From NCBI GenBank assembly GCA_035609245.1, contig CP141202.1, forward strand, positions 62,001-126,000: a DNA stretch of 64,000 nucleotides. The letters are read 5' to 3'. This stretch comes from Bacteroidales bacterium MB20-C3-3 (GTDB lineage: Bacteria; Bacteroidota; Bacteroidia; Bacteroidales; UBA932). The notes beneath the pieces were generated by a model. It worked only from the letters and a program-made list of their open reading frames with translations. It was not told where the DNA came from and did not search any database. Shown here in pieces: positions 3,564 to 6,172 of this stretch. Both the position numbers and the translations under genes were made by a program. How positions within the stretch are numbered: the first letter of the stretch is position 1; each line of letters starts with the position of its first letter.

Positions 3564-3581
3564 CACTTTTCCTCTGAGGCA
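3564..3581 (+). promoter_or_regulatory. Palindrome-cored activator site upstream of tpl leader
   Basis: The 18-nt string CACTTTTCCTCTGAGGCA occurs here and again at 5435-5452 (and inverted at 5397-5414). Its core CCTCTGAGG is a 9-nt palindrome apart from the centre base. It ends 5-6 nt before the -33 element of the promoter at 3585-3614, and the second copy sits likewise before the crp-like gene's promoter. This position suits a class II activator. The Crp/Fnr protein encoded at 5495-6172 is the natural candidate; that is inference. Confidence 0.6.
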
Positions 3582-3584
3582 GAG

Positions 3585-3614
3585 TTGTGGTTTTAAATTT
3601 TTTCCATACATTTG
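3585..3614 (+). promoter_or_regulatory. Bacteroidota-type promoter for the tpl leader
   Basis: TTG at 3585-3587, 19 nt, then TACATTTG at 3607-3614, matching the Bacteroidota sigma-70 pattern TTTG-N19-TAnnTTTG. The predicted start point is only a few nucleotides before the ATG of leader peptide 1 at 3621, so that peptide may be translated almost leaderless. Confidence 0.7.
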
Positions 3615-3620
3615 CAAACG

Positions 3621-3674
3621 ATGAAATTTAACAGCACATATTATTACTCGTATTACTACTTCAACAGGGGTTGA
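3621..3674 (+). CDS. Leader peptide 1, tyrosine-rich (17 aa)
   Basis: ATG to TGA encodes MKFNSTYYYSYYYFNRG: six Tyr codons in two runs of three, plus Phe. The stop codon lies 32 nt before an intrinsic terminator at 3706-3731. A run of regulatory codons just ahead of competing hairpins is the layout of amino-acid attenuators such as those of trp, phe and his operons. Here the sensed species should be charged tRNA-Tyr (or tyrosine itself). The peptide is too short for routine gene calling. No Shine-Dalgarno-like sequence is visible, which is usual in this phylum. Confidence 0.75.
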   Translation: MKFNSTYYYSYYYFNRG

Positions 3675-3675
3675 T

Positions 3676-3714
3676 ACGGGATTGATATGTTATGAAACCA
3701 TATTTGGCTCCCGT
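3676..3714 (+). promoter_or_regulatory. Candidate antiterminator hairpin of module 1
   Basis: ACGGGA (3676-3681) is perfectly complementary to TCCCGT (3709-3714), and ATATG (3685-3689) to CATAT (3699-3703), with a loop at 3690-3698. This hairpin uses the left arm of terminator 1 (3706-3712), so the two structures exclude each other. A ribosome stalled on the Tyr codons would leave 3676 onward free and favour this hairpin. A ribosome at the stop codon (3672-3674) would cover it and favour termination. Derived by hand pairing; no folding energy was computed. Confidence 0.6.
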
Positions 3715-3731
3715 TTTTGGGGGCCTTTTTT
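3706..3731 (+). terminator. Intrinsic terminator 1 of the tpl leader
   Basis: GGCTCCC (3706-3712), loop GTTTTT, GGGGGCC (3719-3725): a 7-bp stem with one G-U pair, then six T (3726-3731). It lies between leader peptides 1 and 2, so transcription would stop here unless antitermination occurs. Confidence 0.7.
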
Positions 3732-3738
3732 GTTTATA

Positions 3739-3831
3739 ATGAATATTAACCGCGCATATTACTACAGCTATTATTATTACCGCACTTACAGGGGTTCGGC
3801 CGTAGTACTATTGTGTAATTCTGAAACATAA
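3739..3831 (+). CDS. Leader peptide 2, tyrosine-rich (30 aa)
   Basis: ATG at 3739 to TAA at 3829-3831. The N-terminal half reads MNINRAYYYSYYYYRTYRG: eight Tyr codons, a pattern close to leader 1 (N-x-A/T-YYY-S-YYY...RG), followed by SAVVLLC and a short tail. Both peptides share the nucleotide string ACAGGGGTT right after the Tyr runs, which suggests the two modules arose by duplication. The peptide begins 7 nt after the T-tract of terminator 1 and ends 27 nt before terminator 2. No equally clear antiterminator pairing was found for this module. Confidence 0.72.
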   Translation: MNINRAYYYSYYYYRTYRGSAVVLLCNSET

Positions 3832-3858
3832 CCACAGAAAACATAAATGAAGTATATG

Positions 3859-3886
3859 AGTCCGGGCCCGCAGCCCGGACTTTTTT
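3859..3886 (+). terminator. Intrinsic terminator 2 of the tpl leader
   Basis: AGTCCGGGC (3859-3867), loop CCGCA, GCCCGGACT (3873-3881): a perfect 9-bp GC-rich stem followed by a run of T. It ends 47 nt before the tpl start codon, so it must be bypassed for tpl expression from the leader promoter. Confidence 0.85.
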
Positions 3887-3933
3887 ATTTAATAACTAAC
3901 TAACAAATTACTTAACATTTAATCATTCAATTT

Positions 3934-5382
3934 ATGAACGAAATTAAATTCCACACAGGCGAAAACATTCCCCTGGAACTTCACAAGGTAAGAATCGTCC
4001 AAAAGTTACATCTTATTCCGGTGGAGGAGCGGCTGGAGGCGATTAACAGATCGGGCTTTAACACATTCAAACTGAATACCCGCGAGGTCTTTCTGGACAT
4101 GCTAACTGATAGCGGCACAAACGCAATGAGCGACGAACAGATGTCGGCAATGATGAGGGCCGATGATGCCTATGCGGGCTCTCAGAGTTTTGAGAGGCTG
4201 CTGGAGGCTGTGCGTGAGGTTCTAGGCGCCGGGCATTTTCTGCCTGTCCACCAGGGGCGTGCAGCGGAGAATATTATTTGCAGGGTTTTTCTCAAGAACG
4301 GAAGTGTTGTTCCCACAAACTACCACTTCACAACTTTTCAGGCGCACACGCTGGACAAAGGGGGGCGGATTGAGGAGCTGCTCTATGAAGATGCACTTAA
4401 GATAGAATCGGATAATCCCTTTAAAGGGAATATGAATATTGAGAAGCTCAGCGCCTGTATAGTTGAGAATGGCCCTGAGAATGTTCCCTTTATACGGATG
4501 GAGGCTTCAACAAACCTTATAGGGGGGCAGCCCTTTTCGCTCGCAAACCTGAGGGCAGTTAGGGGTGTAGCAGACAGATTCGACATCCTACTGGTGCTGG
4601 ATGCCAGTCTGATAGGGGAGAATGCATACCTTATCAAGAGGCGGGAGGCCCAATGGCAGGGTGCTCAGATAGGGGAGATTATCAGGGAGATGACCTCGCT
4701 TGCTGATATTGTTTACTTCTCTGCCAGAAAACTGAGCTCGTCAAGGGGTGGTGGAATTTGTACAAACCGAAGGGATCTTTACTTGCAAATGGAGACCTTG
4801 ATACCGCTCTACGAGGGTTTCCTGACATACGGAGGAATCTCTACCCGTGAGATGGAGGCAATGGCAGTGGGATTGCGTGAAACCCTTGACGAGACTGCAA
4901 TTTCGCAAAGTCCCAGATTTATTGAGTTCCTTGTTGATGAGTTTAAAAAGCGAGGTATCCCTGTAGTAACTCCTGCCGGAGTCCTTGGCTGCCACATAGA
5001 TGCAAAGGCATTTTGCTCTCATGTGCCCCAGAGCCAATATCCTGCCGGTGCACTTGCTGCCGCCCTCTTTATCGCCTCCGGAGTCCGCGGAATGGAGCGG
5101 GGAACCCTCTCATCAGTACGGGACCAAAATGGTAATGATATTCTTGCCGATATTGAGCTGCTCCGCTTAGCTGTGCCGAGGCGCGTCTTCACCCTCTCCC
5201 AGCTTAAATATGTAGTTGACCGTGTTCAGTGGTTGTGGGAAAACAGGCACCTGATTGGTGGCCTCACCTTCTCCTATGAACCCGCCGTTCTCCGCTTCTT
5301 TATGGGCGAACTCCAACCCGTAGGTGACTGGCCGCAAATCCTTGCCGCAAAATTCCGTGCGGACTTTGGGGAGAGTTTGTAG
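3934..5382 (+). CDS. tpl: Tyrosine phenol-lyase homologue (beta-eliminating lyase)
   Basis: 482 residues, a PLP fold-type I enzyme of the tryptophanase/tyrosine phenol-lyase family; TPL splits tyrosine to phenol, pyruvate and ammonia, reversibly. Residues that set TPL apart from tryptophanase are present (Citrobacter freundii numbering from memory): Thr124=T133 (in NYHFTTF; tryptophanase has Asp), Met379/Arg381=M387/R389 (in GMERG) and Phe448/449=F455/F456. Tyr71=Y80, Asn185=N194, Asp214=D223, the PLP lysine Lys257=K266 and Arg404 are also kept. Two departures: the Arg of the D-x-x-R segment (Arg217) is Leu226, and the sequence after the lysine is LSSSRGGG instead of the usual DCLVNIGG type. 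Activity may therefore be altered. The tyrosine leader upstream independently points to tyrosine. A downstream crp-like gene shares its upstream motif. Confidence 0.8.
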   Translation: MNEIKFHTGENIPLELHKVRIVQKLHLIPVEERLEAINRSGFNTFKLNTREVFLDMLTDSGTNAMSDEQMSAMMRADDAYAGSQSFERLLEAVREVLGAGHFLPVHQGRAAENIICRVFLKNGSVVPTNYHFTTFQAHTLDKGGRIEELLYEDALKIESDNPFKGNMNIEKLSACIVENGPENVPFIRMEASTNLIGGQPFSLANLRAVRGVADRFDILLVLDASLIGENAYLIKRREAQWQGAQIGEIIREMTSLADIVYFSARKLSSSRGGGICTNRRDLYLQMETLIPLYEGFLTYGGISTREMEAMAVGLRETLDETAISQSPRFIEFLVDEFKKRGIPVVTPAGVLGCHIDAKAFCSHVPQSQYPAGALAAALFIASGVRGMERGTLSSVRDQNGNDILADIELLRLAVPRRVFTLSQLKYVVDRVQWLWENRHLIGGLTFSYEPAVLRFFMGELQPVGDWPQILAAKFRADFGESL

Positions 5383-5392
5383 TCGCACAGCA

Positions 5393-5456
5393 AATTTGCC
5401 TCAGAGGAAAAGTGTCAAACAACTGAATATTTGACACTTTTCCTCTGAGGCAAATT
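5393..5456. repeat. 27-bp perfect inverted repeat between tpl and the crp-like gene
   Basis: Arms 5393-5419 and 5430-5456 are perfect reverse complements of 27 nt with a 10-nt loop (5420-5429). Each arm contains the CACTTTTCCTCTGAGGCA motif also found at 3564-3581. It could be a double operator for the downstream promoter, an mRNA 3'-end hairpin for tpl, or both. There is no clean T-tract directly after the right arm. Confidence 0.85.
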
Positions 5457-5494: not shown

Positions 5495-6172
5495 ATGGCG
5501 AACAACTGTCAGTTTTGCGAATACAAATCACCGGCGGAGGAGAAGTTGTCAGCAGAGGAGCTTAAGATGTTATCTCCAAATTGCCTGACCGTAAAATTTA
5601 AGAAAGGTGATGTGATTATAAGGCAGGGAACATACTCTACTAATGTTGCCTATCTTAAAAAGGGGCTGGCCAAGATTCATATTGACGGCCCATATCATGT
5701 TCAGGTGGTGAGGATTGTTAAGCCTAGAAATTACCTCGGCCTACCCACTACTTTTGGAGATAAGATAAACCAGTATTCGGTGACAGCGATTGATGAATGT
5801 GAGGTTTGTTTCATAGATATTACAGTATTCCGTAAGATGCTTGAGACTAATCCTGCATTTACCAATCAGATTATGATTGAGTTGTGCAAAAGCGAGCTCG
5901 AGTCATATCAGAAATGTGTGAACCGGACTCAGAAGCAGACCCGCGGTAAACTTGCCGATGTACTTCTGGAATTCGCAAATGTCATTTTTAAAAATGACGA
6001 ATTTACACTTAATGTTACTCAGGAAGAGATTGGAAATCTTGTGGATGCCTCTCGTGAAAGTGTCTCCAGAGTATTCACTGAATTTGGAAAAGATGGGATT
6101 ATTGAGATGAACGGCAAATCGGTGAAAATTCTGGACAAAAATGGCCTGATGACAATTAGCAAGAATGGATAA
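5495..6172 (+). CDS. Crp/Fnr-family transcription regulator
   Basis: 225 residues. An N-terminal cNMP-binding-type beta barrel (FKKGDVIIRQGTYSTNVAYLKKGLAKI, about 35-61) is followed by a dimer helix and a winged HTH at about 170-215 (LNVTQEEIGNLVDASRESVSRV), the standard Crp/Fnr order. Five cysteines are notable: C5 and C8 (a CxxC), C30, and C102/C105. Their number and N-terminal placement recall Fnr-type redox sensing, but the spacing differs from E. coli Fnr, so metal or Fe-S binding is only a possibility. The gene follows tpl and a 27-bp palindrome, and its promoter shares a palindromic motif with the tpl leader, suggesting autoregulation and control of tpl. The glycosylase gene starts 12 nt downstream and is probably co-transcribed. 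Confidence 0.85.
   Translation: MANNCQFCEYKSPAEEKLSAEELKMLSPNCLTVKFKKGDVIIRQGTYSTNVAYLKKGLAKIHIDGPYHVQVVRIVKPRNYLGLPTTFGDKINQYSVTAIDECEVCFIDITVFRKMLETNPAFTNQIMIELCKSELESYQKCVNRTQKQTRGKLADVLLEFANVIFKNDEFTLNVTQEEIGNLVDASRESVSRVFTEFGKDGIIEMNGKSVKILDKNGLMTISKNG

Follow-up and report, generated by a model that had tools for sequence, protein, structure and literature searches.

What turns on the gene of a lyase related to a tyrosine-degrading enzyme when two runs of tyrosine (Tyr) codons precede it, and in which direction would the enzyme then work? These questions are raised by a locus of Bacteroidales bacterium MB20-C3-3 in the window, the whole 64,000-nucleotide (nt) stretch analysed here (contig CP141202.1, positions 62,001 to 126,000), from a 2.38-Mb genome in one contig. 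A preliminary description had named the gene tyrosine phenol-lyase (TPL) and had proposed that tRNA-Tyr charging gates its expression via two serial attenuators. Sequence, folding and conservation support this proposal. Anatomy, folding and recurrence agree, the attenuator reading is well supported by computation, and the region is probably a series of two ribosome-mediated transcription attenuators, whose predicted effect is expression of the gene when tyrosine is short. The locus comprises the following elements, in which numbers such as 1:2 denote the pairing regions of each module.

3585..3614, plus strand: promoter-like element of Bacteroidota type, TTGTG at 3585-3589 and TACATTTG at 3607-3614, read from the sequence.
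3621..3674, plus strand: leader open reading frame (ORF) 1, MKFNSTYYYSYYYFNRG, six Tyr codons at 3639-3659, read from the sequence and kept in the relatives G012 and G022.
3632..3694, plus strand: hairpin 1:2 of module 1 (anti-antiterminator) with the Tyr codons in its 5' side, from minimum-free-energy (MFE) folding of full and half transcripts.
3676..3714, plus strand: antiterminator 2:3 of module 1, from half-transcript folding.
3706..3731, plus strand: intrinsic terminator 1 (3:4) including its T tract, from a local terminator scan.
3739..3831, plus strand: leader ORF 2, MNINRAYYYSYYYYRTYRGSAVVLLCNSET, seven Tyr codons at 3757-3780 and one more at 3787, read from the sequence and kept in G012 and G022.
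3752..3816, plus strand: hairpin 1:2 of module 2, from MFE folding of the full transcript (2:3 is favoured in the half transcript).
3792..3869, plus strand: antiterminator 2:3 of module 2, from half-transcript folding.
3858..3886, plus strand: intrinsic terminator 2 (3:4) including its T tract, from the local terminator scan.
3934..5382, plus strand: TPL-like pyridoxal phosphate (PLP) enzyme of 482 amino acids, PF01212 beta-eliminating lyase (here, the lyase).

Thus, two short ORFs each repeat the codons of a single amino acid, Tyr, with six such codons in ORF 1 and eight in ORF 2, and the claim of two Tyr-rich leaders before the lyase, each with its own terminator, stands. The hairpin of terminator 1 (3706-3725) has 8 pairs, 6 of them GC, followed by TTTTTT, and that of terminator 2 (3858-3882) has 10 pairs, 7 of them GC, followed by TTTT; among the 6 sites of the local scan these two are the richest in GC pairs. 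The modules share repeats 118 and 124 nt apart and look like a duplication in which copy 2 lost the TGA stop (AGG GGT TGA versus AGG GGT TCG) and so came to extend further. The label for 3607-3614 presumes a TAnnTTTG-type consensus for promoters of this phylum. If this putative promoter is used, the transcript would start within a few bases of leader 1; TACATTTGCAAACGATG is identical in both tandem relatives, and the flank around it is divergent. No Rfam family scored over its gathering threshold at the leader region, where no T-box riboswitch was matched either, and only three tRNAs were matched in the window.

How might these leaders respond to tyrosine? Compared with 200 dinucleotide shuffles each, the fold of module 1 (3621-3733) had a z-score of -4.93 and that of module 2 (3745-3890) a z-score of -3.47, with 0/200 shuffles as good in either case. 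Hairpin 1:2, as folded in full transcripts, contains the Tyr codons in its 5' side, and its 3' side can instead pair with the terminator 5' arm (2:3). In module 1, 3676-3681 pairs with 3709-3714 and an inner stem is formed by 3684-3689 and 3699-3704, which is where an antiterminator competing with terminator 1 had been suggested earlier. Since equilibrium folding of full transcripts gave the terminator at every ribosome position, half transcripts were used, cut before the terminator 3' arm; only RNA more than 15 nt from the A site was folded, and RNA 5' of the ribosome was omitted from the model. With the ribosome on the six Tyr codons of module 1, upstream pairing of the terminator 5' arm was 0.62-0.66 (0.74 on the intervening Ser codon), and on the last two codons and the stop it was 0.18-0.32. 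In module 2, the corresponding value was 0.79 in the seven-Tyr run, fell to 0.52 and then 0.27 over the two codons after it and to 0.00-0.05 over the following four, rose to at most 0.43 later in the ORF, and was 0.01-0.09 with the ribosome on the stop or any of the three codons before it. By folding, a mutually exclusive antiterminator and intrinsic terminator follow the regulatory codons, and in the model a stall on Tyr codons favours the antiterminator and the end of the ORF the terminator. Anatomy and folding together predict readthrough in tyrosine shortage and termination in plenty, a starvation-on switch.

The proposed course of events is as follows. RNA polymerase would start just ahead of leader ORF 1. 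With charged tRNA-Tyr in good supply, the ribosome would reach the leader stop codon and the terminator would form; there, the ribosome is predicted to cover the antiterminator 5' arm in module 1, and in module 2 to have moved past this arm and to stand between both antiterminator arms. When charged tRNA-Tyr is scarce, the ribosome would wait on the Tyr codons, region 2 would pair with the terminator 5' arm, and the polymerase would read on and meet the second copy, the lyase being made only after both have been passed.

Does this arrangement recur among relatives? An orthologue search in 299 genomes of the family gave 119 matches in 118 genomes, of which 106 were fetched (the 13/119 left unfetched are all of the type with 52-56% identity), with upstream stretches of up to 450 nt, beyond which more distant modules would be missed. 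Tyr-rich leaders precede 37/106 orthologue loci, in seven genera (g1, g3, g5, g11, g15, g17, and g21). Judged by eye, they form about eleven types, with those of g1, those of g15, and those of g3 and g5 partly alike, and the peptides mostly differ outside the Tyr run (MNRIFTNNYYYYYYRRSTDRG, MKQIVNIRYYYRQS, MKAMNSYCYYYCYCLQPIRSPKR, MIRFQSTYYYYCYCNSTLRIA, and MKSTNYNINSLYYYYRRLPRVGYGIGLC). The enzyme tree needs just three changes of leader state, and one old leader that drifted would therefore be as likely as many gains. A single copy is the rule; tandem modules were seen only in the window genome (G000), G022, and G012, in which leader and post-stop sequence are almost invariant and the promoter flank has diverged.

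The fold test was extended to 20 modules from 18 loci, hand-picked out of the 37 leader loci as examples of leader types, with a score that counts any upstream pairing of the terminator 5' arm and with shuffles that preserve letters, not dinucleotides. The same switch logic appeared in 18/20 modules, that is, in all 18/18 outside g21, with 0.57-0.96 in mid-Tyr position versus 0.00-0.35 at the stop. In 11/18 of these modules, at most 2/40 spacer shuffles reached the observed switch.

Other arrangements were noted among these upstream stretches. Thirteen g21 loci (L006, L141-L145, L147, L149-L151, L157, L165, and L166) have leaders resembling MHS...CYYYSYCRS, and in L006, L141, and L144 the leader is followed not by an adjoining standard terminator but by a long hairpin of the kind GCTCCTGA...TCAGGAGC. 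L041, L074, L075, L076, L084, and L085 have no Tyr leader; a hairpin like AGGGTGCTTGT...ACAGGCACTCT, with a T-rich stretch behind it, is common to them. This hairpin, 50-90 nt upstream of the orthologue, with variants in L083, L097, and L099, occurs mostly in Paludibacter records and is perhaps another kind of attenuator.

Might the ORFs be Tyr-rich by chance and simply lie between ordinary terminators that belong to small RNAs or upstream genes? Runs of TAY codons arise by chance in AT-rich DNA, and the window genome has 23 matches to TAYTAYTAYNNNTAY and 35 to a backwards-read control, so the pattern itself is not rare. However, only the two window ORFs among these 23 matches have a terminator within 200 nt past their end; none of the others represents a further Tyr leader with a terminator, although shorter or broken Tyr runs would escape this pattern. 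By a loose criterion (a short ORF no more than 380 nt upstream of the orthologue, in which some stretch of 5 codons includes 3 or more for Tyr), 38/105 loci were positive on the sense strand and 7/105 on the reverse complement, and 20 dinucleotide shuffles gave a mean of 4.35 and a maximum of 10 of the 105. Together with the near-invariance of leader and post-stop sequence in the three tandem genomes, the terminators and the mutually exclusive folds, these counts make chance frames scarcely credible.

Some results weigh against the attenuator reading itself. Without a ribosome, upstream pairing in half transcripts stood at 0.30 for module 1 and reached 0.79 for module 2; as module 2 prefers the antiterminator in this state, untranslated RNA would be incompletely shut off, module 1 being shut and module 2 not. 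The omitted RNA 5' of the ribosome decides the stop-codon result for module 2 and for other leaders with an antiterminator arm within the ORF. The observed switch was matched by 8/40 spacer letter shuffles in module 1 and 3/40 in module 2, and in L020 by 21/40. Both g21 modules tested lacked the switch (delta 0.14 and -0.06). In the wider order, among the 80 loci of our genome_contigs set, a Tyr-rich frame with a terminator was seen only in the tandem relatives L032 and L033, the other 78 being without.

A switch of this polarity raises a paradox for a tyrosine-degrading enzyme, from which two exits had been offered, a reversed mechanism as in TnaC of tryptophanase or an enzyme that runs in the synthetic direction. 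TnaC acts on excess tryptophan by stalling at the stop codon, with Rho as the termination factor, and arrest peptides have conserved residues. In the corresponding scheme for this locus, excess tyrosine would arrest the ribosome via the Tyr-rich nascent peptide and thereby turn on a tyrosine-degrading enzyme. This demands failed termination with the ribosome at the stop codon, and the reversed scheme is unsupported because folding says the opposite: such a ribosome favoured termination in 18/18 modules outside g21. Moreover, the leader types share Tyr runs and, by eye, neither fixed residues beyond Tyr nor a fixed stop context, and the terminators are intrinsic. In favour of the reversed scheme, TPL is described in a passage on Erwinia and Citrobacter as catabolic and TyrR-activated (PMC1173090), and the presence of the tyrosine biosynthesis protein TyrA in 19/27 leader-less orthologue genomes would be compatible with a catabolic role in those. 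On balance we regard it as very improbable and retain starvation-on attenuation, under which the lyase would be a gene wanted in tyrosine shortage.

What, then, is the enzyme? The closest named records are from Bacteroidales bacterium STF1_254 (98%) and Bacteroidetes bacterium 41-46 (96%). The name TPL held in part. The broad subfamily NF009709, named tryptophanase, was passed (576.8 bits, cut-off 285), and the tryptophanase equivalogs NF053783 and TIGR02617 were missed (371.1 and 361.3 bits, cut-offs 750 and 825.8), as was the TPL equivalog TIGR02618. The best PDB matches are TPLs (376.5 bits, 1c7g at the top), versus 320.1 bits for the best tryptophanase. Aligned to Citrobacter TPL, the residues T124, M379, R381, F448, and F449, which we take to form the phenol pocket, are kept in 37/37 leader loci, as is the PLP lysine K257, and the same five are found in 27/27 leader-less family loci of more than 60% identity and in 80/80 genome_contigs loci. 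Because the equivalog cut-offs were missed and the phenol pocket is kept, we use the label TPL-like; to judge by its sequence, the lyase is a TPL-like enzyme outside the named equivalogs. The window genome has a separate tryptophanase, L002 (NF053783, 881.8 bits, over the cut-off), with D, V, I, H, and F at the five pocket positions, a tryptophanase pocket that the lyase does not have; no Tyr leader was seen before L002.

Two observations concern other members of the family. The 39 loci of 52-56% identity include Gly124 in 11, Gly381 in 11, and Cys448 in 9 (TPL numbering), and their products probably act on another substrate. A tryptophanase-like gene lies about 200 nt downstream of the leader-controlled lyase, on the same strand, in G033 (C34:70219-73222) and in G052 (C10:71090-74108), and in each the two genes are possibly one operon.

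Would genomes with such a leader need tyrosine from an unusual source? Chorismate synthase is present in 91/99 relatives drawn, window genome included, and TyrA, PheA, and phenylalanine hydroxylase were all undetectable in the window genome. In the genus of the window, TyrA (PF02153) was found in 0/9 genomes with the orthologue versus 12/15 without it; a further genome of the window's species (84% complete) has neither. A second, divergent TyrA type matches PF02153 weakly, and a protein of that type was added for the census. Five very weak PF02153 matches (G140, G167, G186, G229, and G269) were dropped and a contig-end fragment in G035 was scored as TyrA. Leader and TyrA states were entered by hand: L030 and L216, both with partial genes and the former with 145 nt of upstream sequence, were dropped, G207 was counted once, and L173 (G104), which satisfies the loose criterion, was scored leader-less by eye for want of a Tyr run and a terminator. 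Counted in this way, TyrA of either type occurs in 2/36 leader-bearing genomes versus 19/27 leader-less genomes of the same enzyme clade, and in 2/19 versus 6/8 at 90% completeness or more. Fisher's test gives p = 5e-8 with kinship ignored, a value not to be taken at face value.

The case of G033, the lyase of which has a Tyr leader, illustrates this pattern. In this genome aroC, pheA, an aminotransferase gene, and a gene for DAHP synthase/chorismate mutase stand in a row with another ORF at the place of tyrA, and the genome gave no match to either TyrA type; its congener G109 has tyrA immediately behind the genes for aminotransferase and DAHP synthase/chorismate mutase. On comparison of L229 with L218, the putative loss of tyrA in G033 is recent and specific. 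Apart from these genes, the window genome encodes a fusion of type I dehydroquinase and EPSP synthase of 671 residues (L231:3192-5207, minus strand), and G012 has an ORF of similar size with matches to both.

As most leader-bearing genomes lack a detectable TyrA, the synthetic direction is a better way out of the paradox than the TnaC-like scheme. We tentatively propose that the lyase converts phenol, pyruvate, and ammonia to tyrosine and so replaces the supply of the missing TyrA. The TPL reaction is reversible, and this reversibility, the starvation-on control, and the use of TPL in Tyr-auxotrophic Escherichia coli speak for synthesis from phenol. In such E. coli, TPL was used to make fluorotyrosines from added fluorophenols and the cell's own pyruvate, as a part of PMC12631008 describes. 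More broadly, and with similar caution, the TPL-like enzyme of the family may have become a tyrosine synthase that captures environmental phenol, replaces a lost TyrA, and is governed by starvation attenuators, doubled in the lineage of the window. Other bacteria of the same habitat would be the obvious candidate for a source of phenol. Alternative supplies were considered in 20 genomes. Phenylalanine hydroxylase as a source of tyrosine was found in 0/20. Internal phenol made from chorismate via UbiD was considered as well; UbiD is present in 17/20, with and without TyrA (not in G033, G052, and G205), and its presence regardless of TyrA makes it uninformative on the phenol source.

This proposal has to be set against several results. 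The score of the lyase for TIGR02618, 433.5 bits, lies under the cut-off of 720.7. Arg217 of TPL, which we take to lie near the cofactor, is replaced by Leu in 183/183 aligned loci, some genomes being counted twice. Corrected for kinship, the link of leader and TyrA has p = 0.5; the enzyme tree holds three leader changes with 1.5-2 concordant and 0 discordant pairs, and so few independent pairs cannot reach significance. G101 and G109 carry both leader and TyrA, and genus g20 (4 genomes) has neither. PheA was not found in 16/18 leader-bearing genomes tested, and was found in 4/4 TPL-less genomes of the window's genus; most leader-bearing genomes would therefore need outside phenylalanine and may simply live on peptides. 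No phenol source was found with UbiD decarboxylase examined in the 20 genomes.

Several of these points would also suit classical starvation-on attenuators that control an enzyme with another task, whether a different substrate, phenol detoxification, or a control merely inherited. The Leu for Arg217 and the score under the TPL cut-off agree with this, and so does the scarcity of PheA, since peptides that must supply phenylalanine could supply tyrosine too. Yet the ring side of the pocket is that of TPL, and a Tyr-specific sensor in seven genera is hard to explain unless tyrosine is the product. We consider such a non-synthetic task rather unlikely and keep to tyrosine synthesis as our working proposal.

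Near the leaders and the lyase, a repeat was noted. CACTTTTCCTCTGAGGCA lies at 3564-3587, just upstream of the leader promoter, and again at 5393-5456, inside a perfect inverted repeat of 27 nt in the interval from the lyase to a Crp/Fnr-type gene (5495-6172); the relative L003 has three copies within 3 kb. It could act as a shared operator or as a bidirectional terminator, or else be a dispersed repeat.

A starvation-on sensor before a relative of TPL, mostly in genomes without detectable TyrA, would imply the opposite direction of the enzyme and make phenol a shared resource of anaerobic communities. TPL is presented in a passage of PMC11259132 as a source of gut phenol, a precursor of uremic toxin. 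If the proposal is true, bacteria have a further route to tyrosine, and genome-based calls of tyrosine auxotrophy would change. A doubled leader-peptide attenuator also offers a natural case on whether serial attenuation sharpens the response. In this respect, many regulatory codons, in number and fraction, are linked to higher attenuation sensitivity in part of PMC1183508.

How does the locus compare with known systems? The leaders of E. coli trp, his, and pheA are ribosome-mediated amino-acid attenuators, and the locus resembles them in the leader ORF with regulatory codons, the 1:2, 2:3, and 3:4 hairpins, the intrinsic terminator, and the starvation-on logic. It differs in having two full copies in series, in preceding a TPL-like lyase rather than a standard biosynthetic operon, and in belonging to Bacteroidota. 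As with TnaC, a gene of this enzyme family is preceded by a leader peptide that contains the aromatic amino acid concerned; the locus differs from TnaC in its intrinsic terminators and in that stop-codon stalling would favour termination. Citrobacter and Erwinia TPLs share Pfam family and phenol-pocket residues with the lyase, whereas they are TyrR-activated; the lyase scores 433.5 against 720.7 bits, has Leu for Arg217, and is under an attenuation predicted to be on in tyrosine shortage. Neither attenuation of TPL nor tyrosine supply by it was described in any of the titles and abstract openings found in open-licence literature.

Within the phylum, leader-peptide attenuation has been proposed before amino-acid operons of Flavobacterium psychrophilum (in part of PMC9723704) and a putative attenuator before the Bacteroides thetaiotaomicron pheA operon (PMC1173090, Table 7), and short ORFs within long 5' untranslated regions of B. 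thetaiotaomicron were likened to leader peptides in a passage of PMC7366714. These attenuators have phylum, principle, and amino-acid genes in common with ours; theirs precede biosynthesis operons, and the passages concerned name none before a TPL-like gene. According to a passage from 2010, its authors knew of no leader-peptide system beyond Proteobacteria and Actinobacteria before their Firmicutes case, the atypical ermC aside (PMC2965389). Serial devices have precedents: in bacilli, thrZ and trpE are preceded by two or three T-boxes side by side (in part of PMC2494555), and some rimP leaders have a second, tandem terminator (likewise in PMC2965389). There, as here, at least two termination devices stand before one gene; T-boxes read tRNA directly, whereas here translation of a leader ORF would be the sensor. 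What is new is thus a predicted starvation-on attenuator of a known kind, doubled, on a TPL-like gene.

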